From the NCBI RefSeq assembly GCF_000321415.2, contig NC_019902.2, positions 124,001-188,000 of the forward strand: DNA of 64,000 nucleotides, in the 5' to 3' direction. Below the pieces are notes generated by a model. The model was not told the DNA's origin, made no database searches, and saw only the letters and a program-made list of their open reading frames with translations. Source of the stretch: Thioalkalivibrio nitratireducens DSM 14787 (GTDB lineage: Bacteria > Pseudomonadota > Gammaproteobacteria > Ectothiorhodospirales > Ectothiorhodospiraceae). This document shows positions 4,001-22,685 of this stretch, piece after piece; the first letter of the stretch is position 1; each line of letters begins with the position of its first letter. The translations under genes were made by a program, and so were the position numbers.

Positions 4001-4639
4001 GAGATCGGCGATCTGCTGGAGCGTTACCGTGAGGCCATCGCACGTCTGCCGCGGCGCGTCGAACGGCCGGAGCAGGTGCGTTTCGAGCATGCGGGCCTCG
4101 TGGTCGAGGGAATGCTGACCGGCCTGCGCGCGGAAGCCACCGGCGCCCCGGCGCTGCTTCGCCACCGCGCCGGGCCGCTGCGGGGCAAGGTGCCCGCTTG
4201 GCGCTACGACGTGTTCGCCCATGCCTGGGTCACGCACCTGCTGGCCAATGCTTCGGGACTGGAGCTGACGACGGTGCTGGTCGGAACCGACACCGGTCTG
4301 GACTGGGCGCCGGTGCCCGCGGCCGATGCCGCTGACGCGCTGCGGAGTTTGCTGGACGGCTGGAGTGCGGGCCAGCGGAGCCCCCTGCCGGTGGCCTGCC
4401 AGACCGCCTGCGCATGGCTGGAAGCCGAGGCGGCGGGCAAGGATCCCGGCGCGGCTGCAGCAGGCGCCTACGAGGGGGGCTGGCAGTCGGCCGGGGAGCT
4501 CGGCCGCAGCCCTTACCATGCCCGCGCCTTCCCGAGCGCCGGGCATCTGCTCGGGGCGGAGGGTTTCGTGCACTGGGCCCACGCGCTGTACCGGCCATTG
4601 TTCGGGGCGGTGCATGTGGCCGCGGAGACGGCCGCATGA
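1090..4639 (+). pseudogene. recC: recC, exodeoxyribonuclease V gamma subunit, with one frameshift
   Basis: RecC is the Chi-recognising scaffold of RecBCD, which resects double-strand breaks and loads RecA. The N-terminus reads in one frame from 1090 and contains the family segments VHGNRMHDLRALA, ILVQSSGIAQWLKLAL and QLPARFLW. The remainder, from about RPLPEGQCWQAALW to the TGA at 4637-4639, is in the next frame and runs about 1,000 codons. The switch lies at the six-G run 1620-1625: removing one G restores a normal RecC of about 1,180 residues. The downstream part is intact and the operon is otherwise undamaged, so this may be a sequencing error rather than a real lesion. The stop overlaps the recB start (ATGA). 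Confidence 0.85.
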
Positions 4640-7600
4640 CCGTCGGATACCGGACGGCAGATGCCGGGGCCGCCACGCCCCCGCTGCGGGATCCGGGCGA
4701 CCTGCCGCTGTTCGGCAGCCGGCTGATCGAGGCGAGCGCCGGCACCGGCAAGACCTACACCATCGCCGGGCTGTACCTGCGGCTGGTGCTGGGGCACGGC
4801 GGCGAGCGGGCCTTCGACCGGCCGCTGTCGCCGCCCGAGATCCTGGTGGTCACCTTCACCGATGCCGCGACGCAGGAGCTGCGCGCCCGGATCCAGGATC
4901 GGCTGCTCGAGGCGGCGCGCCATTTTCGCGGCGCCGCCCCGGCCGAACCGGATCCTTCGCTGCGGCGCCTGCTCGACGATCATCCGGACCCCGGGCAGCG
5001 CGCCGCGGGTGCCCGGCGGCTGGAGGCGGCCGCCGAGTGGATGGACGAGGCGGCGGTCTCGACCATCCACGGCTGGTGCTACCGGATGCTGCGCGAGCAT
5101 GCGTTCGACAGCGGCAGTCTGTTCGATCAGCAGCTGGAGGCGGATCTCTCCGACCTGCGGTCAGAGGCGGTGCGGGACTACTGGCGCACGATGATCTACC
5201 CGCAGCCTCCCGCGCGGCTGGGCCTGTTGTGTTCGATCATGGGTCAGGATCCGCAGGCGTTGGAGGCGCGAATCGGTGCACTGCTGGAGAGGGAGCCGCC
5301 TGGTGCCGCGGCCCTGCCTGAACTCGAGGCCCTGCTGGACCGGCGGCTGGACCAGGTCGCACAGCGCAAGGCCCCGTGGCGTGACGACTTCGATGCGGTG
5401 GCGGAGAGCTTCCGAGCTGCACTGCCGGCGCTGAACGGGAACAAATATCGCAACGCCGAGGACCTGCTCGAGAAGATGCGCGAATGGTCGCTTCATCCCG
5501 GGGCAGAACCTCCGCACGGGAATCTTGCCGAACGCTTCAGCCTGCAGGGCATGCGCGAGCGCCTGAAGCAGGGACGGGACCTGCCGGCGGATCTGCACCC
5601 CGCTTTCGCCGGGCTGGACGGCTACGCCGGCGAACGCGACGACACGCCGGGGCAGGTACTTGCCCATGCCGCAGCCTGGGTGCGCCACCGCTTTGAGCGC
5701 GAGCGGCAGCGGCGCGCGCAGCTGGGTTTCGAAGACCTGCTGCAGGGCCTGGACACCGCGCTGATCGGGCCAGGAGGGCCGCAGCTCGCCGAGACCATCC
5801 GCAGCCAGTTCCCGGTCGCGATGATCGACGAGTTTCAGGACACCGATCCGGTGCAGTACCGGATCTTCGAGCGCATCTACCGGGTCGCGGAGAACCGCCC
5901 GGAACAGGGCGTGTTCCTGATCGGCGACCCGAAGCAGTCGATCTATGCGTTCCGCGGCGCCGACATCCACAGCTACCTGCGCGCCCGTGCCGCGACCTCC
6001 GGGCGCCACTACACGCTGGCGACGAACTTCCGGGCTACCGGATCGTTCGTGCAAGCGTGCAACCGGCTGTTTGCCCATGCCGAGGGGCACCCGCAGGGCG
6101 CGTTCCTGTTCCGCACGCCGGAGGGCGAGAATCCCGTTCCGTTCGAGGGCGTGGCCGCGCACGGTCTCGGCGAGTCGCTGCGGATCTCGGGGCAGCCGGT
6201 ACCGGCGCTGACGCTCGCGTTCGTCGACGACGGCGCGGCGGTCGGGAAGGGGACCTACCTAGGCACGATGGCCGAACGCTGTGCCAGCGAGATGGTGGCG
6301 CTGCTGCAGGCCGGTCAGGATGGCCAAGGCGGCTTCCTCGGGAACGGCGGGCTGCGTCCGCTGCAGCCTTCGGATCTGGCGGTGCTGGTGCGTAACCGCA
6401 ACGAGGCGGAAGCGATCCGTGGCGCGCTGGAGCGGCGCGGCGTGCGCAGCGTCTACCTGTCCGACCGAGAATCGGTGTTCGACACCCCCGAGGCAGCCGA
6501 CCTGCTGCGCTGGCTGCGCGCCTGCGCCGAGCCCGAGTCGGAACGGCTGTTGCGCGCTGCGCTGGCGACCGCGACGCTGGACCTGGACCCCGAGCAGATG
6601 GACCGCCTGAACCACGACGAGGCCCACTGGGAGGAGCGGGTGCTCGAGTTCCGGGAATACCGGAGGATCTGGCGCGAGCAGGGGGTATTGCCGATGCTGC
6701 GCCGCCTGCTGCACGCATTCGAACTGCCTGCCACGCTGCTGCAGCGGCCCGACCGCGGCGAGCGCGCGCTGACGAACCTGCTGCACCTGAGCGAACTGCT
6801 GCAGGCGGCGGCCGGGGAACTCGATGGCGAGCAGGCGCTGATCCGCCATCTCGCGGAACACCTCGACGGCCGGGGCGCGGGGAGCGACGAGCAGATCCTG
6901 CGGCTGGAAAGCGACGAGGGCTTGGTCCAGGTGGTGACCATTCACAAGTCGAAGGGATTGCAGTATCCACTGGTGTTCCTGCCGTTCATCTGTACCTTTC
7001 GCCAGGTCGATGGGAAAGCGCTTCCGCTTGTTTACCGCGACGACGCCGGTCAGTCCTGCCTGACCTGGCACCCCGAGTCCGCGCAGGTGGAACTGGCCGA
7101 TCGCGAGCGCCTGGCCGAGGACCTGCGGCTGCTGTATGTCGCGGTGACCCGCGCCCGGCACTCCTGCTGGTTGGGGATCGCGCCGCTTCGGGTTGGCAGC
7201 GGATCGGCGAGCCAGCTGCATCTGAGTGGCTTCGGCTACCTGCTGTCCGGTGGCGCCGAGATCCCGCCCGGCGGCGTGCGGGCGCAGTTGCAGCGATTGG
7301 CCGGTGACTCGGCCGATATCGCGGTACGCCCGGTGCCTGAGCCGCGGGACGAGCGCTTTCGCATCGTGGCCGCGGCGACCGGTGTCGGTCGTGCCCGCGA
7401 GCCGCTGCGCGCGGCGCGCGAGCACTGGTGGATCGCCAGCTACAGCGCGTTGCGCGCCGCCGATGCGCTGTCCGGGTCGATGACCGCGCCGCCGGACGCC
7501 GCCGACACTGCGCTGGAGGACCGGTTCCCCGAGATCGCGGACGAACCGGCGGCAGGCGGCCACGACGCGGGCGATACCGAGACGGGTCTGCACCGCTTTC

Positions 7601-11121: not shown

Positions 11122-11904
11122 TCAGTCCTTGAATGCGACGAACGTCGCGCCCTGAACGCCGAACTGGCGGGCGATGTCCTCCTTGCTGGTGCCAGCGAAC
11201 GAATCGAAGTAGGCGACGCTCTGGGCACGCTGGAAACCGGCGTCGGCCAGTGCCGCGAGGTAGCCTGCAGACTGCAGAGCCCCCGCGATTCACCCAACCC
11301 AGAGTTCGATGTCGTTGCGCGCCGCCGCCGACAGTTCAGCCTCGATCACGATGTCGGAGAACTGCACGCGCCCGCCTGGGCGCAGCACGCGGTAGAGCTC
11401 CGCGAATACCCGATCTTTCTCCGGGCTCAGGTTGATCACGCCATTCGAAATGGCCACATCCACCGACGCGTCCTCGAGCGGGAGTTCCGCGATGTCGGCG
11501 CGTTCGAAGCGGGCATGGTCGATGCCGACCGTCGCCGCCCCGGTCCGGGCCGTGCGGAGCATCGCGTCGGTGAAGTCGAAGCCGATCACCTCGCCGCGCG
11601 GCCCGACCTGACGTGCGGCCAGCAGGCAGTCCATGCCGCTGCCCGAACCCAGGTCGATCACCCGGGCGCCGCTGGGGAGTGCAGCCGCGCGGAAAGGATT
11701 GCCGACGCCGGCAAACGGCGCGGTGACGAAGTCGGGCAGCTCGTCGAGCTCGGCCCGGTCGTAACCCAGCAGTGTCGCGGCATAGTCCGGGCCGCGGTGA
11801 AAGTGGAAGTCGCCGTCGGGTTCCTCCGCCACCCGGCCATAGGTGGCGCGGATCTCCTTCTTCAGCCGTTCGCGGTCCAGTGTCACTTCGCAATCGGTTG
11901 CCAT
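11122..11904 (-). CDS. Selenocysteine-containing ArsM-like SAM methyltransferase
   Basis: A 260-residue class I methyltransferase read through an in-frame TGA at 11290-11292 (residue 205). The start ATG at 11904 has GGAGGA upstream. The SAM site is DLGSGSG (84-90), with ISNGVINL and VLRPGGRVQFSDIV following. Before the TGA the protein ends ELWVG; after it 55 codons continue as IAGAL, GYLAALADAGF, AYFDSFAGTS and a TGA at 11122-11124. The paralogue at 18597-19826 has WVECVVGAT at the same place, so Sec replaces a conserved Cys. This Cys corresponds by position to a substrate-binding Cys of ArsM arsenite methyltransferases. The other ArsM Cys before the SAM site is Val here (FAGVGNP), so the true substrate, perhaps a metalloid or chalcogen, is uncertain. 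A SECIS-like hairpin follows the TGA. Confidence 0.88.
11263..11292 (-). promoter_or_regulatory. UGA(Sec) codon with bacterial SECIS-like hairpin
   Basis: Read on the minus strand, UGA is followed nine bases later by an 18-nt hairpin at 11280-11263. Its arms are GC-CUGCA and UGCAG-GC with a single bulged U on the 5' side and loop GUC. E. coli fdhF SECIS has the same features: a bulged U, an apical loop with GU, and the loop about 19 bases after UGA; here G and U are at +18 and +19. The hairpin core UGCAGUCUGCA differs from the E. coli core by one G. SelB binding is inferred, not shown. Confidence 0.8.
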
Positions 11905-12209
11905 GGTCGTTCTCCTCCGTGTCCTCGTCGTCTGCCGTCCCGGGGTCCTTCGGTCTGTGCCAACGGACTGGGTGGAGCCTGTCCGCGGGGGGTGCCCGGG
12001 CGGGTGGTTCGGCCGGCGCCGTGCAAACGGGATATACCGTGCCGTTGGCCCAAGGACGCGCGAGGCACGCAAACGGTTCCCCGGCTTGCGGCCAGCGGGG
12101 CCGGCACCGGGTGGTCTTCACGGCGCGGGGCAAGGTTCTTCGTGGGGAGTGGGTTCTGGGGAGTGGGGCATTGGTCGTGTCGGGGTGGCGTTGCGGGACG
12201 CCGCCGGGT
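11905..12209. other. Intergenic region upstream of the selenoprotein gene
   Basis: About 300 bases without a credible gene. It must hold the promoter of the minus-strand methyltransferase and the 3' end region of the next minus-strand gene. The plus strand around 12130-12200 is G/T-rich. I see no clear promoter, operator or repeat. Confidence 0.4.
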
Positions 12210-13497: not shown

Positions 13498-14313
13498 ATG
13501 AGCGATGCGCGGCCGGAGTCGTCCGACGCCAGCAGCGACGGCACGCCCAGGATCGGGCTGTTCGTCACCTGCCTCGCGGACATCTACCGGCCGAATGTCG
13601 GTCTTGCGGCGGTCGCGCTGCTCGAGCGGTCCGGCTGCACCGTGGAAGTGCCCGACTCGCAGACCTGCTGCGGTCAGCCCTCGTACAACAACGGTGATCT
13701 CGCCGGAGCCGCCCGCACCGCGCGCCGCACCATCGAGGCCTTCGAGGACTACGACTACGTCGTCGTGCCGTCCGGCTCCTGTGCGGGCATGCTGCGCGAC
13801 TACCCCCGCCTGTTCGAGGCCGAGCCGGGCTGGCGGCTGCGGGCGCGGGCGATGGCGGAAAAGACTCACGAACTGATCTCGTTCCTGACCGACGTCCGCG
13901 GCGTCACGTCGGTCGACGCCGCCTTCAACCGCCCCGTGACCTACCACGACAGCTGCCATGGCCTGCGTGCGCTCGGAATCAAGGAACAGCCGCGCCGGCT
14001 GCTGGAAAGCGTGCGCGGCCTCGAGTTGCGCGAAATGGCGGACTCCGAGATCTGCTGCGGCTTCGGCGGCACGTTCTGCGTGAAGTACCCCGAGATCTCG
14101 GGCCGGATGGTCGCCGACAAGGCGGCCAGCATCGGCGCGACCGAGGCAAAGGTCGTGCTCGGCGGCGATCTCGGCTGCCTGCTGAACATCGCCGGCCGCC
14201 TCGGCCGCGAGGGCGGCGGGGTGAGCGTTTATCACGTCGCCGAGGTGCTCGCCGGCATCGCCGACGTCCCGGGACTCGGCGATCCGCCGAAACCCGGCAA
14301 GGGATCGCGCTGA
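13498..14313 (+). CDS. lutA: LutA-type (Fe-S)-binding subunit of L-lactate oxidation
   Basis: A 271-residue protein of the LutA/YkgE family, part of the LutABC complex that oxidises L-lactate to pyruvate in the cytosol. It has the two cysteine-rich CCG-type motifs of the family: TCCGQP (residues 57-59 CCG) with SGSCAGM, and DSCHGLR with EICCGFGG (186-188). These ligate Fe-S clusters or bind heterodisulfide-like partners. Length is typical (about 240 residues) plus a short hydrophilic N-terminal extension. The stop overlaps the lutBC start (TGATG), so the two are coupled. Confidence 0.93.
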   Translation: MSDARPESSDASSDGTPRIGLFVTCLADIYRPNVGLAAVALLERSGCTVEVPDSQTCCGQPSYNNGDLAGAARTARRTIEAFEDYDYVVVPSGSCAGMLRDYPRLFEAEPGWRLRARAMAEKTHELISFLTDVRGVTSVDAAFNRPVTYHDSCHGLRALGIKEQPRRLLESVRGLELREMADSEICCGFGGTFCVKYPEISGRMVADKAASIGATEAKVVLGGDLGCLLNIAGRLGREGGGVSVYHVAEVLAGIADVPGLGDPPKPGKGSR

Positions 14314-16394
14314 TGCAGCCGCTCAGCCACGCCTTCAAGAAACGCTCGGTCGCGGCATTGCAGGACGAGACGCTGCAGGTCGCGCTGCACCGGGCGAAGG
14401 ACGGCTTCGCGGTCAAGCGCGCGAACGCGGTTGGCGGGCTGCCCGAGTTCGATGCGCTGCGCGACCGCGCGGTCGCGATCAAGAACCACACGCTCGAGCA
14501 CCTCGATTACTACCTGGAGCGTTACGCCGACGCGGTCGAGCGTAGTGGCGGCACCGTGCATTGGGCCGCGACCGCCGACGATGCGCGGCGCGCCGTGGTC
14601 GAGATCTGCCGTGCCGCCGGCGCGCGCATGATCACCAAGGGCAAGTCGATGGTCGGCGAGGAGGTCGGCCTGAACGGTGCGCTCGAGGCGGCGGGGTTCG
14701 AGGTCGTCGAGACCGACCTCGGTGAGTACATCATCCAGCTCGCGAACGAGCCGCCGAGCCACATCATCGTTCCTGCGGTGCACAAGACGCGCGGGCAGAT
14801 CGCCGATCTGTTCCACCAGCATCACCAGCAGTACGGGTTGACGCGCCGGCTCAACGAGGTGCCGGAGATGGTCAACGAGGCCCGGCAGGTGTTGCGCAGC
14901 AAGTATCTCGAGGCCGATGTCGGCATCACCGGCGCGAACTTCCTGATCGCCGAGACCGGGACCAGCGTGATCGTGACCAACGAGGGCAACGGCGACCTGA
15001 CCTGCTCGCTGCCGAAGGTGCACATCGTGATCACCGCGATCGAGAAGGTCGTTCCCACCGCCGAGGACGCGACCACGCTGATGCGCCTGCTCGCGCGCAG
15101 CGCGACCGGCCAGGACCTGACCACTTACACCACCTTCAGCACCGGTCCGAAGCGCCCCGGGGATCCCGAAGGTCCCGAGGAATACCACGTGGTGCTGGTC
15201 GACAACGGTCGCTCGACGATGCTCGCCGACGAGTTCCGCGAGATGCTGCGCTGCATCCGCTGCGGGGCCTGCATGAACCACTGCCCGGTCTACGGGGCGA
15301 TCGGCGGCCATGCCTACGGCTGGGTCTACCCGGGGCCGATGGGTTCGGTGCTCACGCCGCTGTCGGTCGGGCTGAAGGAGGCGGGCAACCTGCCGAACGC
15401 ATGCACGCTGAACGGGCATTGCGCCGAGGTCTGTCCGGTGCGCATCCCGCTGCCCGACCTGCTGCGCACGCTGCGCCACCGCGAGTACCAGCTGAAGCTG
15501 GGCTTGAAGCCGCTGCGCTGGGGGCTTGCCGCCTGGGTCTGGTTCACCTCGCACCCGCGCATCTACCGTCTGGGCACGCGGGTGCAGGCGCGGATGCTCG
15601 CGCTGCTCGCGGGCCGCAAGGGCCGCTTCACCCGGATGCCGCTCGCCGGCGGCTGGTTCCGCGGCGGGCGCGACCTGCCCGCGCCGCAGGGCGAGACCTT
15701 CATGGCGGTGTGGAAGCGCCGCCAGAAGGAGCGGGGGCCGGTGAGCGGGCGCGACACCGTGCTGGCGGCGATTCGCCGCGGCCTCGGGCGCGGCCCGCTG
15801 GGCCCCGACGCGCGACGGGCATTGGAACGCCGCCGGGGCGCGACCGACAGCGAGCCGCTGCTGCCGAGGCTCCCGCACGGGCCACTGGCGCAGGTGTTCC
15901 GCGCCGGGCTCGAAAAGGTCTCCGGGACGATGTCGGAACTCGAGTCACTGGCCGAAGTGCCAGCCGCGGTGGCCGGCTACCTCTCCAGCCATGGTCTGGG
16001 CCCCGAGGCGGCGGTTGCGCCGTCCCTGGAGGAACTGGACTGGACCGGGGCGGGGATCACCGCGAGCGTCGGGCCGACCCGCGGCGGCGACTATGCCGGG
16101 GTGAGCCTGGCCTGGCGCGGTGCCGCCGAGAACGGCAGTCTGGTGCTGCTTTCCGGCCCCGACGATCCGACCTCGCTGAACTTCCTGCCCGACCACCACA
16201 TGGTCGTGCTGCGCGCGGGTGATCTGGTGCCGCACCTGGAACAGGTCTGGGCCGCGCTGCGCGAACGGGGCAGGGACGGCTGGCCCCGGACCGTGAACGT
16301 GATCACCGGGCCGTCGCGCACCGCGGACATCGAGCTGACGATCCAGCTGGGTGCCCACGGACCGCGCAGCCTGCACGTGTTCCTGGTGGACTAG
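14313..16394 (+). CDS. lutB: LutB-LutC fusion, iron-sulfur lactate oxidation protein
   Basis: A 693-residue protein. Residues 1-460 are LutB: a LUD domain (KGKSMVGEEVGLN, GITGANFLIAETGT) and two ferredoxin-type clusters, CIRCGACMNHC (314-324) and CTLNGHCAEVC (364-374). From about residue 480 a second, LutC-like LUD domain follows (GITASVGPTRGGDYAG, LPDHHMVVL, NVITGPSRTADIE). LutB and LutC are normally separate proteins, so this is a natural fusion. It overlaps lutA by one base and is followed after 261 bases by the lactate permease. Confidence 0.92.
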   Translation: MQPLSHAFKKRSVAALQDETLQVALHRAKDGFAVKRANAVGGLPEFDALRDRAVAIKNHTLEHLDYYLERYADAVERSGGTVHWAATADDARRAVVEICRAAGARMITKGKSMVGEEVGLNGALEAAGFEVVETDLGEYIIQLANEPPSHIIVPAVHKTRGQIADLFHQHHQQYGLTRRLNEVPEMVNEARQVLRSKYLEADVGITGANFLIAETGTSVIVTNEGNGDLTCSLPKVHIVITAIEKVVPTAEDATTLMRLLARSATGQDLTTYTTFSTGPKRPGDPEGPEEYHVVLVDNGRSTMLADEFREMLRCIRCGACMNHCPVYGAIGGHAYGWVYPGPMGSVLTPLSVGLKEAGNLPNACTLNGHCAEVCPVRIPLPDLLRTLRHREYQLKLGLKPLRWGLAAWVWFTSHPRIYRLGTRVQARMLALLAGRKGRFTRMPLAGGWFRGGRDLPAPQGETFMAVWKRRQKERGPVSGRDTVLAAIRRGLGRGPLGPDARRALERRRGATDSEPLLPRLPHGPLAQVFRAGLEKVSGTMSELESLAEVPAAVAGYLSSHGLGPEAAVAPSLEELDWTGAGITASVGPTRGGDYAGVSLAWRGAAENGSLVLLSGPDDPTSLNFLPDHHMVVLRAGDLVPHLEQVWAALRERGRDGWPRTVNVITGPSRTADIELTIQLGAHGPRSLHVFLVD

Positions 16395-16437
16395 CGGGAT
16401 GGGGGCTGTCACGCACGGGGGCGACGGGACCGGGGGG

Positions 16438-16523
16438 CCCTGCCTGCCCGCGGGACGCCATGAATACGTCCCTGTAGGCTTCACGGCAGCATCCGTGCCG
16501 CCGACACCCGCCGGAAGGCAGGG
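16438..16523. repeat. Intergenic palindromic repeat upstream of lldP
   Basis: The 17-nt arms at 16438-16454 and 16507-16523 pair with two mismatches (CCCTGCCTGCC / GGCAGGG ends). Between them lies a second hairpin around GCTTCACGGCAGC / GTGCCGCC. This 86-base element has the look of a dispersed mosaic repeat. It sits between lutBC and lldP, where it could stabilise or separate transcripts. Confidence 0.65.
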
Positions 16524-16655
16524 CACCCCGGTCCTTTCGGTTCTTGCGGCGCCCTGCTGTAGGCCCGCAACCGCATTCTTCGCCACGCGCCGGCCCGCTG
16601 CTTTCGGTCCGGGGGCGGCGGAGCCTGATACCAATAAGAATAGAGGAGCGAGTCC

Positions 16656-18428
16656 ATGAACCTGGGTATCCTGTTCCTGCTGGCACTGATGCCGGTGGCC
16701 ACGGTGTTCGTCTTCCTCGTGGTGCTGCGCTGGCCAGCCAAGCACGCGATGCCGTTGGCCTACGTGGTCACGGCGGCGATCGCGCTGCTGCTGTGGGGCA
16801 CCGATTTCAGGGTGGTCGCTGCGGCGAGCGTGCACGGCGTCGTCACTGCGCTGAACATCCTGTTCATCGTGTTCGGGGCGATCCTGTTGCTATACACGAT
16901 GCGCGAGAGCGGGGCGATGCAGACGCTGCGCCAGGGGTTCACGAACATCTCGCCCGACCGGCGCATCCAGGCGATCATCATCGCGTGGATGTTCGGCTCG
17001 TTGATCGAGGGCTCCGCCGGTTTCGGCACGCCGGCGGCAGTCGCGGCACCGCTGCTGGTCGCGATCGGATTCCCGGCCATGGCGGCGGTGCTGTCGGCGC
17101 TGATCATCCAGTCGACGCCAGTGTCGTTCGGCGCCGTTGGTACGCCGATCCTGGTCGGCGTGAACGCCGGCCTGTCGGGGCAGGAGATCGTCGAGGGGCA
17201 TATCGGCGACGTCGCCTTCGCCGATTACCTGCTGCAGATCGGCGGAAACGTCGCGTTGTTGCACACCCTGGTCGGTTTCCTGATCCCGCTGATCATGGTC
17301 GGCATGCTCACGCGTTTCTTCGGTAAGTCGCGTTCGTTCCGCGAGGGCCTGAAGGCGTGGAAGTTCGCGCTGTTCGCGGGCGTGTCGTTCACGATTCCGT
17401 ACCTGCTGGTTGCCTGGCTGCTGGGCCCGGAGTTCCCGTCGATCGTGGGCGGCCTGGTCGGCCTTGCGATCGTGGTGACCGCTGCGAAGAAGGGCTTCCT
17501 GGTCCCGAAGGAAGTATTCCAGTTCGAGGAGCGCAGCCGCTGGGAGCCCGAGTGGATCAGCCGCTTCCAGGATCAGCCGGACCCGGTCAGGACCGGTGCC
17601 GCGATCACGATGGTGCAGGCCCTGGTCCCCTATGTCGTGGTGGTGCTCCTGCTGGTGATCACCCGCACCGTGGAGCCGGTCACCGCGTTCCTGCGGTCGC
17701 CGGAGATGACGCTGTCCTGGACCGGCATTTTCGGCACCAACATCAATACCTCGTCGCAGCCGCTGTACCTGCCCGGGGCAGTGCTTCTGGTCGCGTCGAT
17801 CGTCACCTATTTCCTGCATAGAATGTACAGGGAAAAGGGCGCCTATCTCAGGGCCTGGGGCCAGTCCGGGCGGATCATCGTTGGGGCGAGCGTCGCACTG
17901 ATCTTCGCCGTGCCGATGGTGCAGGTGTTCATCCAGTCCGGGCAGGCGTCGGAGTACGCGAGCATGCCGCTGGTGCTCGCGGAAGGCGTGTCCGCGGTCT
18001 CGGGGGCAGCGTGGCCGTTCTACTCGCCGATCATCGGCGCGCTCGGCGCTTTCATCGCCGGTTCGAACACGGTCAGCAACATGATGTTTTCGCTGTTCCA
18101 GTTCGCGACTGCCGTGCAGATCGACCTGACCGCCAACCAGGCGGCTTTCGTCGTGGCGCTGCAGGCCGTGGGCGGTGCCGCGGGCAACATGATCTGCGTG
18201 CACAACGTGGTCGCGGCGTCGGCCACCGTTGGCCTGATCGGGCGCGAGGGTGACCTGATCCGCAAGGCGCTGATTCCGATGACCTATTACGTGCTCGCAG
18301 CCGGTGCACTGGGTATGGCGATCATCTATGCCGCTACGCTCTGGTATGTCGTGTGGGTCGCGATCGTGGCCGCGTTCTTGCTGTTCATGCTCTGGAACAA
18401 GGGCAGGCAGCCGGCCACCGCGGTCTGA
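16656..18428 (+). CDS. lldP: L-lactate permease (LctP family)
   Basis: A 590-residue inner-membrane protein of about 13-14 transmembrane helices that imports lactate, probably with protons. Family signatures include [34 protein letters not shown] and [13 protein letters not shown], and [20 protein letters not shown] near the C-terminus. E. coli LldP has 551 residues. The start at 16656 follows AGAGGAG with good spacing. Position downstream of lutA-lutBC supports lactate as the substrate rather than glycolate. Confidence 0.94.
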
Positions 18429-18596: not shown

Positions 18597-19826
18597 CTAC
18601 CGCGACTGCGCGCCCAACCCCAGCAGCCTTGCCTGTTGCCGCCGGCGCAGCCAGATGTCCCAGCCCACCGCGCCGGCCAGGGCCACGAACCCGGTCAGTT
18701 CCGTCAGCGCGTGGTAATTCACGAACAGCGCGTAGACGATCACGCCCGCGCCGCCGGCAGCCAGTAGCGACGGACCGACCCCGCGGTGGCGGCGGAACCC
18801 GGGCACGACCGCCAGCGCCGTCAGCACCGCGAACAGTGCGATCGCCCCGGCCCAGATGCCTTCGTCGAGCGCGAGGCCGATTCCGAGCACCGCGAGCAGC
18901 CCCAGCGCGGCCAGCGTGCCGTAGCAGGCCAGCAGTGCGGCCGCGAGTCCCAGCACGCCCGCGAAGCCCCGCCGCCAGAGCGATGCGGCCAGGCGCGCGG
19001 GATTCACCCTCCGGAAGAACTGCGCGGTGCGGGACGGCGCACGATTGCCACGGCGCATCGCGAGCTCGACCGAACGCGCCCCGAAGCCGGCGGCGACCTC
19101 GCGGGTCTGGCGGCTCGGGCTGTGGGCGAAATAGTCCCGCGAGCCCAGCACCCGCACATCCTCGAACCCGGCGTCGCGAAACATGTGCAGCAGGTCCTCG
19201 TCGACGGTCGCACCGACCACGCACTCGACCCAGAGACGCGGATCCTCGGCGCAGTCGACGGTGACGGGCCGGTCGATCACCACGTCGGCGAGTTGCAGGC
19301 ACCCGCCAGGACGCAGCACGCGGAACATCTCGCCGATCGCGCGTCGCTTGTCCGGGACCAGGTTCAGCGCACCGTTGCTGGTGATGCTGTCGACGCTCGC
19401 ATCTGCCAGCGGCAGCGCCTCTGCCGAACCCCGGATTACGCTGACCGGAGCGCCCCCGGATTCGCTGGCGGCGTGCCGGAGCTTGCGGGTCATCGCCGTG
19501 GTCAGGTCGAGCGCGACCACATGTCCGTCGGGACCTGCCAGCTGGCCGGCGATCAGTGTGTCCACCCCGGCCCCGGCGCCGATGTCGAGCACGGTGTCCC
19601 CGCGCCGGACGGCTTCGCCATTGAAGGGGTAGCCGACGCCGGCGAACGATTCCTGCACGGCGCGCGGAAGGGGGGCGGTGCGCTCGGGCGGATAGCCGAC
19701 CAGCGCGCTGGCGGAGGCCCCGACCGGGAAATGGAAGTGCGAGTCGGGGTGGTCGGCCACGGTGGTATACATATCCTGCACCGCCGAGTGAATCTGCTCC
19801 CGCGAGTAACCGAGTATGGCGACCAA
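18597..19826 (-). CDS. ArsM-like methyltransferase fused to a four-helix membrane domain
   Basis: A 409-residue protein. Residues 1-270 are a SAM methyltransferase paralogous to the selenoprotein at 11122 (FHFPVG, FAGVGYPF, DIGAGAGVDT, ITSNGALNLVPDK, VLRPGGCLQLADVV). Cys202 in WVECVVGAT is the residue that is selenocysteine in the paralogue. Residues about 290-400 hold four hydrophobic helices ending WDIWLRRRQQ, reminiscent of small metal-transport membrane proteins such as MerC, but not firmly so. The start is TTG at 19826, chosen because GGAGG lies eight bases upstream and family similarity begins at once. Substrate unknown; a metalloid is a reasonable guess. Confidence 0.85.
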   Translation of the reverse strand: MVAILGYSREQIHSAVQDMYTTVADHPDSHFHFPVGASASALVGYPPERTAPLPRAVQESFAGVGYPFNGEAVRRGDTVLDIGAGAGVDTLIAGQLAGPDGHVVALDLTTAMTRKLRHAASESGGAPVSVIRGSAEALPLADASVDSITSNGALNLVPDKRRAIGEMFRVLRPGGCLQLADVVIDRPVTVDCAEDPRLWVECVVGATVDEDLLHMFRDAGFEDVRVLGSRDYFAHSPSRQTREVAAGFGARSVELAMRRGNRAPSRTAQFFRRVNPARLAASLWRRGFAGVLGLAAALLACYGTLAALGLLAVLGIGLALDEGIWAGAIALFAVLTALAVVPGFRRHRGVGPSLLAAGGAGVIVYALFVNYHALTELTGFVALAGAVGWDIWLRRRQQARLLGLGAQSR

Positions 19827-19929: not shown

Positions 19930-20166
19930 TCAGAACCGCTCGATCAGGCGCCGCACTCGACGCCGCAGCCGCGGCGGTGCCTCGTCTTCGGCGGCCGCGT
20001 GCACGCGTGCGCGCAGCTTCTTCTCGAACTCTGCGCGGCTGAAGCATTCCCGGCAGCGCTCGAGGTGGCGGTCGATGTCGCTGCTCCGGGCTGGATCCAA
20101 CTCGCGGTCCAAATATTCGAAGAGGAGCCGAATGACCTCCTCGCAGTTGATTTCGTGTGCTGTCAT
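19930..20166 (-). CDS. Zinc-finger anti-sigma factor (ZAS type)
   Basis: A 78-residue soluble protein with the ZAS motif: Cys8, His34, Cys38, Cys41 (HLERCREC). The spacings 26, 4 and 3 equal those of the redox-switched RsrA of Streptomyces (Cys11, His37, Cys41, Cys44). In that family zinc holds the anti-sigma factor on its sigma factor, and oxidation to a disulfide releases it. The ATG overlaps the sigma-factor stop (ATGA), the usual arrangement for a cognate pair. The C-terminal third is Arg-rich. Confidence 0.88.
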   Translation of the reverse strand: MTAHEINCEEVIRLLFEYLDRELDPARSSDIDRHLERCRECFSRAEFEKKLRARVHAAAEDEAPPRLRRRVRRLIERF

Positions 20167-20813
20167 CGCGTCTTCCCGTGCCCCGTCGCACCGGGATCCA
20201 ATCCTTCCTCCCGAGCGATCTCCCAGAGACGGCGCTGCAGCAGACTGCGCCCCCGGCTCAGGCGCGAGCGCACGGTCCCGACCGGGATTTCGAGTAGATC
20301 GGCGACTTCCTCATAGGTATGCCCCTGCACCTCGACCAGCACGACGACGATACGAAATGCGTCCGGCAGGTTGTCGAGTGCCGCCTGCAGGTCCTCCCGG
20401 AGCAGATCGTTCAGGAAACGCTCCTCCGGGGTTCCCCACCACAGCAGGAACGGCTGGTGCAGTTTCTCGAACAGCGAGAAGTCGGCGACCGCGGACGGAT
20501 CGGTGATCTCGGGATCGGTGTGCTGTTCCACCTGGCTCCGTGTCCGGTGGCGGCGCCACGCGCTGACGAAGGTGTTGTTGAGTATACGGAACAGCCAGCC
20601 CTCGAGGGATCCCGCGTCACGCAGGTCTCCGAAACTGGCCCAGGCCTTCGCCACTGTCTCGGCGACGATGTCTTCGGCGTCGTCCGGATCACCCGCCAGG
20701 CGCAGGGCCGTGCCATAAAGGCGATCCATGAGCCGATCGACCGTCCTCTCGAAGATGTCCCGACGCTCGCTCCTGCCGAGAGATCTCGCATCGTCTGCGC
20801 CTGGGTCCGCCAT
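20163..20813 (-). CDS. ECF RNA polymerase sigma factor
   Basis: A 216-residue ECF-type sigma-70 factor with region 2 (LYGTALRLAGDPDDAEDIVAETVAKAW, GWLFRILNNTFVSAWRR) and region 4 (LPDAFRIVVVLVEVQGHTYEEVA, IPVGTVRSRLSRGR). The start at 20813 is preferred; the frame is open 31 codons upstream but those are basic and unlike the family. The region 2-4 linker is long, as in SigR-like factors. It is coupled to the zinc anti-sigma gene, so it probably directs a thiol- or redox-stress regulon. Confidence 0.9.
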   Translation of the reverse strand: MADPGADDARSLGRSERRDIFERTVDRLMDRLYGTALRLAGDPDDAEDIVAETVAKAWASFGDLRDAGSLEGWLFRILNNTFVSAWRRHRTRSQVEQHTDPEITDPSAVADFSLFEKLHQPFLLWWGTPEERFLNDLLREDLQAALDNLPDAFRIVVVLVEVQGHTYEEVADLLEIPVGTVRSRLSRGRSLLQRRLWEIAREEGLDPGATGHGKTR

Positions 20814-21240
20814 GACAAGCCTTGTACCGATCCTCCATCGTTCGCGGTCCCTGCCGGAACGGGGTCCGGCACTTCGCCTGGTCAAGACCATCGGTGACTC
20901 GATCATGGATCATTCCGCAGGGGCGCGCCAATGCGGCACCTGTGGATCGGCGATTCATCTGTCGCCATTTCGGGCGCAACGCAGATCTTCCTAGCGCAGG
21001 GGTTTGCTTTTCCCATGGGGCATGTGTGGTGGTCTGATTGTCGTGGACACCTCGATAGGATGCGAAAGGATGTTCGGCGAGAGATTGCCGTTGCTGCGTG
21101 CACCGTCCGGGCAGTCGTCAAGGGTTCCTGCTCCCCGGGTTTCCCGAAAGCCCGGTCCGCGACGAGAAGCGGCGTGCGGTTCCGATCACCCACCGCACGC
21201 CTGCCTCCTCGTTCCGTTCAGGTCAGGATCATCCCCCCGC
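20814..21240. other. Intergenic region upstream of the sigma-factor gene
   Basis: About 430 bases with no credible gene on either strand. It should hold the promoter of the minus-strand sigma/anti-sigma operon and the 3' end of the DUF302 gene. I found no clear autoregulatory ECF promoter, repeat or terminator by eye. Confidence 0.4.
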
Positions 21241-21684
21241 TCAATCGAACACGGTGTCCAGCATCGCTTCGAAGGCGGGCAGGGCCTTGTCCCCCGCCCT
21301 CTCGAGGTTGGGATCGGGATAGAGTTCGTTCATGAAACGCGGATGCAGCAGTGACATCCGGGTGAGGTTTCCTTCCTCGTAGATCGCGAGGTTGCCGCAG
21401 GGCAGCATCGCGGACGCCTTCATGTCCGCCTGGAAGAAGTCCGGGCCGATCGGCGGATAGCAGATCTTCATGATCGTCACTTCTCCTCCCTTCAATGGGT
21501 GCTCCGAGAGGAACAGCCAGTCGTCGTGCCCTTCCGCATATTGCCGGATCCTGGCGGCGAGTTCCGCGGGCGAGTCGGTGGTATCGCGGATGATGAACAT
21601 CCCGTCGTCCGCGGTGGCGACCGATACGTGGGTGAAGGCCGTCAGACAGCCGGCAACCAGCATGCTCGTGGTCAGGTGTTTCAT
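21241..21684 (-). CDS. Exported DUF302 family protein
   Basis: A 147-residue protein with an N-terminal signal sequence (MKHLTTSMLVAGCLTAF) that contains a Cys, so a lipoprotein is possible but the context is not a classic lipobox. The mature part has DUF302 features: VTIMKICYPPIGPDFFQAD, ASAMLPCGNLAIYEEG and LLHPRFMNELYPD. DUF302 proteins are small periplasmic or cytosolic proteins of unknown role, often near sulfur or redox genes. The start at 21684 follows AAGGAGGAG, an excellent ribosome site. Confidence 0.85.
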   Translation of the reverse strand: MKHLTTSMLVAGCLTAFTHVSVATADDGMFIIRDTTDSPAELAARIRQYAEGHDDWLFLSEHPLKGGEVTIMKICYPPIGPDFFQADMKASAMLPCGNLAIYEEGNLTRMSLLHPRFMNELYPDPNLERAGDKALPAFEAMLDTVFD

Positions 21685-22058
21685 GCGTGCTCCTCCTTCG
21701 TTGTGGTTCGGATCGACCTGCACGCGCCGCGTGCGAGATCCGGTCCCCGGTGCGCGGGTGTGGCCCGAGGTGCTGCAGGGACGCGCGAGACGCCCGGAGG
21801 GTTCCCGGGCGTGGTTCGGTTCCCGCGGCATGGACCGGTCTGCCCGGAAAAGGCGCGCGCACCTCGCTTCGCCGGATCCCCCGGCTGGCCGCGAACCAGA
21901 GCGTTCGCCGCCACGAACGCCGGGCAGGGGCGGGGCCGACAGTCATAGCTCCCCCTTGCCGGAGCGGCCTATGGCTCCGCGCCCGGCGCGTCCCTACAAT
22001 CGTGGTCATCTCCCTCAACCCGAACCCCCGGTTCGCCAGTCAGGAGTGGTACATCACC
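21685..22058. other. Divergent intergenic region
   Basis: 374 bases between the divergent DUF302 gene and the CMD-Rieske gene. Open frames here have no similarity or ribosome sites. It presumably holds two divergent promoters, but none stands out in the GC-rich sequence. Confidence 0.4.
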
Positions 22059-22685
22059 ATGAGCGATGCCCTGAACTACCTGGTCCAGGTGCGCGGCGAC
22101 GCGCTCGGCCATTACTTCAAGTTTCTCAAGGACGCCGGCAAACACCTCGACCCGAAGACCCGCAATCTGATCTCGGTGATCACCAAGGTCCATTCCCAGA
22201 CCGAGGCAGGCTTCAAGCAGTATTTGATGCGCGCGCTGCGCGAGGGCTGCACGCCGATGGAGGTCATCGACGCACTGATGATGGCGTTCCCAGCATTGGG
22301 CTTGGCCAAGGTCGTCTGGGCCACCGAAATCATTCTGAAGATGGATATTCCGGAGTTTTCCCCGGAACTGATCGCCGCCGAGCCCCAGTGGCGCGATGTG
22401 ATGGCCGCCGACGATATCGCGGACGGCGAAGTGCTTCGTGTGGAATCCGCCACCCGTACCGTGTTCGTGTACCGCGAAGGGGATTCCTACCGGGTCTACG
22501 ATTCGCATTGTCCGCACCAGGTGACCAACATTCCGCATCTGGCCCTGGAGGGCATGACGCTGACCTGTCCGAAACACCAGTGGAAGTTCGACATTCGTAC
22601 CGGTGACTGCATCGCCAAAGGCAAACACCCGATGAAGGCGTTCGAGACACGGGTCGCGGACGGGCGTCTGTTGGCCTGGTGGTAG
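22059..22685 (+). CDS. Fusion of a CMD (AhpD-like) domain with a Rieske [2Fe-2S] domain
   Basis: A 208-residue cytosolic protein. Residues 1-100 resemble the carboxymuconolactone decarboxylase/AhpD fold (KTRNLISVITKVHSQTEAGF, ALREGCTPMEVIDALMMAFP). The usual redox CxxC of AhpD is replaced by HSQT, so peroxidase-type thiol chemistry is unlikely here. Residues 120-208 are a Rieske ferredoxin: SHCPHQVTN (Cys151, His153) and LTCPKHQWKFD (Cys170, His173), the C-x-H and C-x2-H cluster ligands. The start at 22059 has CAGGAGTGG upstream. Such a protein could be an electron-transfer partner of an oxygenase or sulfur enzyme; no partner gene is adjacent. Confidence 0.87.
   Translation: MSDALNYLVQVRGDALGHYFKFLKDAGKHLDPKTRNLISVITKVHSQTEAGFKQYLMRALREGCTPMEVIDALMMAFPALGLAKVVWATEIILKMDIPEFSPELIAAEPQWRDVMAADDIADGEVLRVESATRTVFVYREGDSYRVYDSHCPHQVTNIPHLALEGMTLTCPKHQWKFDIRTGDCIAKGKHPMKAFETRVADGRLLAWW

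Follow-up and report, generated by a model that had tools for sequence, protein, structure and literature searches.

A methyltransferase gene of Thioalkalivibrio nitratireducens DSM 14787 carries a TGA codon within its reading frame. Does this codon end the protein or is it read as selenocysteine (Sec) and, in the latter case, on what would the enzyme act? The gene lies on the minus strand of the stretch of 64,000 nucleotides analysed here (the window; positions 124,001 to 188,000 of contig NC_019902.2), which belongs to a genome of 4,002,350 bases in a single contig. It starts with an ATG at 11904–11902; between 11904 and 11122 the sole TGA inside the frame is codon 205, in the residue context LWVG-U-IAGAL (U, Sec), and codons 206–260 continue the frame beyond it. 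Comparison with homologous loci strongly supports the Sec reading through a conserved TGA, the presence of sel genes, frozen codons in a hairpin, selection on the downstream protein and an association with selB; UGA205 is very probably decoded as Sec. The best overall explanation, which we consider likely, is a Sec-decoded methyltransferase of the ArsM fold whose selenolate would hold a substrate other than free arsenite.

Results

TGA replaces a cysteine codon in a group of homologues

The initial annotation placed an in-frame TGA at a Cys position that a paralogue in the window keeps. Direct reading confirms the TGA at 11292–11290 as codon 205, and the paralogue (18597–19826), which is 39% identical to the Sec gene, has TGC at the corresponding site. 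Among the 65 homologous loci in which site 205 was covered, TGA occurs in 19 and TGC or TGT in the remaining 46, all 46 Cys-type loci thus encoding Cys. Every one of the 18 loci with at least 70% identity has TGA (own locus included; L028, L030 and L033 are repeats of L064, L067 and L068), and the nineteenth TGA locus, L071, is 42% identical. The close TGA-form carriers comprise Thioalkalivibrio, metagenome-assembled genomes (MAGs) of Hydrogenophilales, Sulfuritalea, Rhodocyclales, Casimicrobiaceae and Betaproteobacteria, and one MAG filed as Planctomycetota, in which the contig is 3.5 kb long. The TGA is no read error of TGC or TGT, because it is present in 14 distinct genomes of this first survey.

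Homologues continue beyond the TGA: 17 of the 18 close loci extend to a common end, and the frame of the exception, L037, is broken soon after it. The continuation of 55 codons is also as first described. What had been called a normal stop is itself a TGA (11124–11122), a point left unsaid, and is very probably the true terminal stop, because L066 and L032 carry TAA there, after residues 259 and 260, respectively. A frame continuing past this second TGA was considered and rejected: the read-on sequences of the relatives differ (by eye), and TAA stands at this place in two of them.

A second survey, of 377 genomes from the phylum of a deltaproteobacterial MAG (NF041537, E 1e-60), gave matches in eight genomes, five of which have TGA at the site. 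Among 398 sampled Pseudomonadota genomes (query P0001, E 1e-50), no TGA form other than that of the window was found.

L037, the second copy in Sulfuritalea bin.273 (4001–4737), has a 7-base deletion in the hairpin described below (by eye), after which the frame is broken. It looks like a decaying duplicate; the same MAG contains the intact copy L032.

Selection acts on the protein after the TGA and on a hairpin

Codon usage was compared in the window gene and 11 relatives that are 73–84% identical to it, leaving out the repeats L028, L030 and L033, the partial L038 and L041 and the frame-broken L037. In codons 206–215, eight of 10 columns are codon-invariant, as compared with seven of 128 other columns that are invariant in amino acid (Fisher p = 1e-7; 12 sequences). 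The 10-codon window with the highest third-base identity is 205–214, with 0.923 against a median of 0.519. In the 45 pairs formed by 10 of these sequences (L067 and L029 additionally left out), the mean proportion of synonymous differences (pS) is 0.585 before the TGA, 0.14 in codons 206–215 and 0.597 in codons 217–258, and the ratio of non-synonymous to synonymous proportions (pN/pS) is 0.231 upstream and 0.288 downstream of the TGA. The two patterns together therefore indicate purifying selection on the protein encoded after the TGA, and selection on the hairpin as nucleic acid.

The candidate selenocysteine insertion sequence (SECIS; Table 1) begins nine bases 3′ of the UGA, with one U bulged out and a loop of GUC at 11272–11270, 17 bases from the UGA; its start, bulge and loop sequence had been described correctly from the outset. 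Limits for bacterial SECIS elements given in PMC13188914 are a loop of 3–9 bases, an upper stem of 4–16 bp, a G in the first two loop bases, a distance of 16–37 bases from the UGA and an energy of −7.5 or lower. The hairpin lies within them in its loop of 3, its stem of 5 bp with two pairs below the bulge, its G in first place and its 17 bases; for the 42-base stretch from the UGA onwards the energy is −20.6, but the 18-base hairpin by itself reaches only −6.7.

A formate dehydrogenase alpha gene (fdhA) of the same genome likewise contains one in-frame TGA, followed after 19 bases by a hairpin of the same plan (GG, U, GGCCA, GUC, UGGCC, CC). In several betaproteobacterial relatives the fdhA hairpin is GG, U, AUCCA, GUC, UGGGU, CC, and in Escherichia coli fdhF (NC_000913.3) it is GG-U-UGCA-GGUC-UGCA-CC, a split made by hand, where RNAfold bulges the neighbouring U. 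The arsM, fdhF and fdhA elements have in common a bulged U, a short stem and a small GU loop 17–19 bases from the UGA; their stem letters differ with the pairing kept, and the host gene of the arsM element is unrelated to the other two. In five distinct hairpins (one arsM and four fdhA; fdhA hairpins were obtained for 10 of 13 loci, with none for L121, L126 and L127), 97.1% of cells pair and both sides have changed in four of seven pairs; none of 500 shuffles reaches the covariation score. Covariation is weaker in seven arsM-type sequences alone, where the score is reached in 16 of 500 shuffles and equalled by the register shifted by −2.

In a fixed-register control, all five stem pairs form in 15 of 18 Sec loci, four in two and two in one, as compared with five pairs in two and four in one of 65 Cys loci, a set that contains some stretches fetched twice. 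The Sec locus with only two pairs is L135 (by eye), in which the hairpin is shifted by one base. L135 (in G646) is the most distant Sec form (39%), and its shifted hairpin is very stable. A search for the 18-letter hairpin in IMG/VR gave no matches.

The genome has a complete set of sel genes, and selB accompanies the TGA form

The initial annotation proposed a search for selA, selB, selC and selD, and all four were found in the genome: selB (460 bits), selA (581 bits), selD (495 bits) and the tRNA-Sec gene selC (78 bits; ARAGORN also detects it, with anticodon tca), no more than about 9 kb apart (L009). In the two surveys together, selB is present in 16 of 19 TGA-form genomes as compared with three of 18 Cys-only genomes, which were chosen rather than drawn at random. 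The first survey contributes 11 of 14 distinct TGA-form genomes (G000 and ten others) and one of 11 Cys-only genomes, the second five of five and two of seven; the pairs G017/G581, G040/G583 and G019/G586 were each counted once because their match coordinates agree. In L115 (the same as L028), arsM, selA and selB follow one another on the same strand, the gap from arsM to selA being 238 bases.

Some observations weigh against the SECIS or would fit a real stop instead. No selB match was found in G019 (77% complete), G582 (the MAG filed as Planctomycetota) or G057 (97% complete, carrying L071); the folding energy of the hairpin is unexceptional (z = −1.21, 25 of 200 dinucleotide shuffles being equally good) and unconvincing by itself as proof of a SECIS; and the hairpin stretch has no Rfam match. 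L071 itself (933–1691) has a good hairpin, and its occurrence in a genome without a selB match may reflect contamination, a lost selB or something else.

Were the TGA a real stop, as it is by default, the locus would be a pseudogene or encode an enzyme of 204 residues, and both the broken frame of L037 and the three genomes without a selB match would fit. We reject this explanation as very improbable: the TGA is shared by all 18 close loci and occurs in 14 genomes, the protein downstream of it is selected, the hairpin codons are frozen and the sel set is complete. An open frame alone cannot identify the inserted residue, so that read-through of the UGA might instead insert a standard residue, for instance Trp or Cys. 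The presence of Cys in all 46 Cys-type loci, the SECIS features and the association with selB make this more improbable still.

Two of three arsenic ligands are replaced

With Sec at codon 205, the product is a class I S-adenosylmethionine (SAM) methyltransferase of 260 residues (PF13847, 109.4 against a Pfam gathering score of 27). Its best fold matches are the arsenite methyltransferases CmArsM (PDB 6cx6, 4fr0) and CrArsM (5evj). Cys72, Cys174 and Cys224 of CmArsM are the residues that hold the arsenic. In the alignment they correspond to Val67, Gly155 and Sec205, and position 205 is the substrate-ligand position of ArsM. PMC5552862 names these three as the conserved cysteines of CmArsM and gives a rule of at least three among Cys44, 72, 174 and 224. 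The window protein, with Gly38 (in a weakly aligned region), Val67, Gly155 and Sec205 at these positions, fails it. The second ArsM Cys had been noted as absent from the outset; Cys174 is the one replaced by Gly155, and the loss extends to Cys72. In a biased sample, Sec occurs only in the branch with Val or Thr at 67 and Gly at 155, in 18 of 42 proteins as compared with none of 25 outside it; all 42 sampled proteins without Cys67 have Gly155.

The best named family is PRK11873 arsenite methyltransferase (NF008823), at 230.5 bits. The window protein shares with this Sec family the UxxG motif (U205-I-A-G208) in an ArsM-type SAM methyltransferase, and differs in scoring below the curated cut-off of 263. 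Residues 9–232 are also matched by NCBIfam Sec fusions, each far below its cut-off and with match ends at 231–232: NF041537 (ArsM/AhpD, 200.9 against 510 bits), NF041536 (ArsM/DUF2284, 188.5 against 575) and NF047649 (methyltransferase/UXPK-star, 185.6 against 460). Unlike these fusions, which are listed with UxxG motifs, the gene studied here contains a single Sec and lacks a second domain.

The name of the best family, the top folds and the name of the listed selenoprotein family all favour an ordinary Sec arsenite methyltransferase, in which As(III) would be methylated with Sec as third Cys and with glutathione or other thiols as the missing ligands. The sub-threshold score, Val and Gly at the positions of Cys72 and Cys174 and the constancy of Gly155 in proteins without Cys67 argue against it, and we regard it as unlikely.

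The enzyme had been described as acting with a single Sec nucleophile, which overlooks Cys5 and Cys93. All 12 close Sec members have both, which are rare elsewhere (one of five and two of 21, respectively), and either may serve as ligand or redox partner. Cys5 recurs in three of the five distant Sec members from the second survey, L137, L139 and L141. A second Cys near Cys205 in the Cys forms, at position 197, is present in four of 21 and hence not general. The distribution of Cys5 and Cys93, together with the fusion of a listed relative to an AhpD-type domain, would fit a redox role, in which a selenenyl-sulfide between Sec205 and one of these residues controls or powers the methyltransferase. 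Against this stand Sec without Cys5 in L135, L136 and L071, Leu or Ser at position 93 in five Sec members (L137, L139, L141, L136 and L071) and the place of position 205 among the substrate ligands, and we consider a redox role somewhat less probable than even an ordinary arsenite methyltransferase.

Genomic surroundings

The Sec gene in the window has no recognised operon partner next to it. A shared operon as the key to function was rejected, since neighbours vary among relatives and selA–selB adjoins only in L115/L028. Features of the window are collected in Table 1.

Table 1. Coordinates in the window of the Sec methyltransferase gene, its elements and the genes around the Cys-form paralogue.
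Feature	Position	Strand	Remarks
Gene for ArsM-like methyltransferase, with predicted Sec	11122..11904	−	260 codons and stop
Probable ribosome-binding site GGAGG, 5′ of the ATG	11914..11918	−	Read from the sequence
In-frame UGA, codon 205, predicted to be read as Sec	11290..11292	−	TGA 19, Cys codon 46 among 65 loci
Probable terminal stop TGA	11122..11124	−	TAA here in L066 and L032
Putative SECIS hairpin GC-U-CUGCA-GUC-UGCAG-GC	11263..11280	−	Frozen codons, likeness to fdhA, covariation, Cys-locus control
Cys-form ArsM-like paralogue fused to MerC (mercury transport) domain	18597..19826	−	Context, outside the selenoprotein
zf-HC2 gene	19930–20166		Paralogue located behind zf-HC2, sigma factor and DUF302 genes
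Sigma-70-family (extracytoplasmic function-like) factor gene	20163–20906		
DUF302 gene	21241–21831		

The combination of sigma factor, zf-HC2 and ArsM-like gene recurs in L105, L106, L107, L108, L110, L111 and L114. Pfam confirms MerC in L105 and L110 as well as in the window; in L106 the gene is without it. A further short Cys homologue lies on the opposite side of the sigma factor in L105, L106 and L107. The content of the block suggests a metalloid or thiol-stress regulon. Near it, a weak ChrR-cupin-like/DUF4437 gene is present in L105 (10129–10608), L107 (966–1700), L110 (9021–9617) and L114 (5990–6613), of which only the L105 gene passes the Cupin_7 cut-off. Elsewhere in the window, a plus-strand frame at 21687–22685 encodes an AhpD-like (carboxymuconolactone decarboxylase) domain and, after it, a Rieske domain, and lactate-use genes (a CCG protein, a LUD/ferredoxin protein and a lactate permease; 13498–18428, plus strand) lie between the two methyltransferase genes.

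Discussion

The identification as an ArsM-like Sec methyltransferase is supported, with the correction that this selenoprotein family was known before. Sec arsenite methyltransferase appears among the 'experimentally verified' entries tabulated in PMC9312934, in a table of PMC13188914 and in a table row of PMC2398784; the family representative is WP_011987699.1, with the motif UxxG, and the reviews credit Fomenko et al. 2007 (PMC9312934, PMC13188914). We found no account of a Thioalkalivibrio Sec methyltransferase in the literature searched, in an incomplete search judged mostly from listings; in PMC11611182 selenoproteins appear only as an annotation step. We regard as new the single-domain Sec form, in which two of the three arsenic ligands are lacking.

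We propose that SelA, SelB, SelC and SelD decode UGA205 as Sec, steered by the hairpin whose loop lies 17 bases 3′ of the UGA, and that Sec205 occupies the arsenic-ligand position of CmArsM Cys224. With Val67 and Gly155 in place of the other two, the enzyme would lack the three-thiolate grip on free arsenite of CmArsM. Because one chalcogen is left of three ligands, a grip on free arsenite seems unlikely and canonical arsenite methylation by the window enzyme doubtful; we therefore propose a methyltransferase with a single selenolate that acts on some other thiophilic metalloid, perhaps one already methylated. The selenolate alone, or together with Cys5 of a flexible N-terminal tail, would hold a thiophilic substrate next to the methyl group of SAM. 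A candidate substrate would have few exchangeable ligands, such as a methylated trivalent arsenical or another metalloid, and would leave once methylated. For this more specific proposal, in which the enzyme works with one selenolate and free arsenite is not its substrate, we put the odds at about even.

The data point to a single-domain selenoenzyme, scoring below the curated cut-offs of the families that match it, in Thioalkalivibrio and several betaproteobacterial MAGs, with more distant forms in five genomes from a different phylum. An annotation that took the TGA as a stop would truncate a Sec methyltransferase. We put forward more tentatively that the Val67/Gly155 branch consists of widespread single-chalcogen methyltransferases rather than arsenite methyltransferases, in which Sec repeatedly replaces the one remaining Cys. 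If so, one selenolate would hold, for methylation, a thiophilic substrate that has a single exchangeable ligand, for example a dimethylated trivalent arsenical or a species of selenium, tellurium or antimony, and the name under which these selenoproteins are catalogued would be misleading. The use of Sec is tied to an ArsM-like branch from which two of the three arsenic ligands are gone, so that 'arsenite methyltransferase' may be a misnomer for the selenoproteins of this group.
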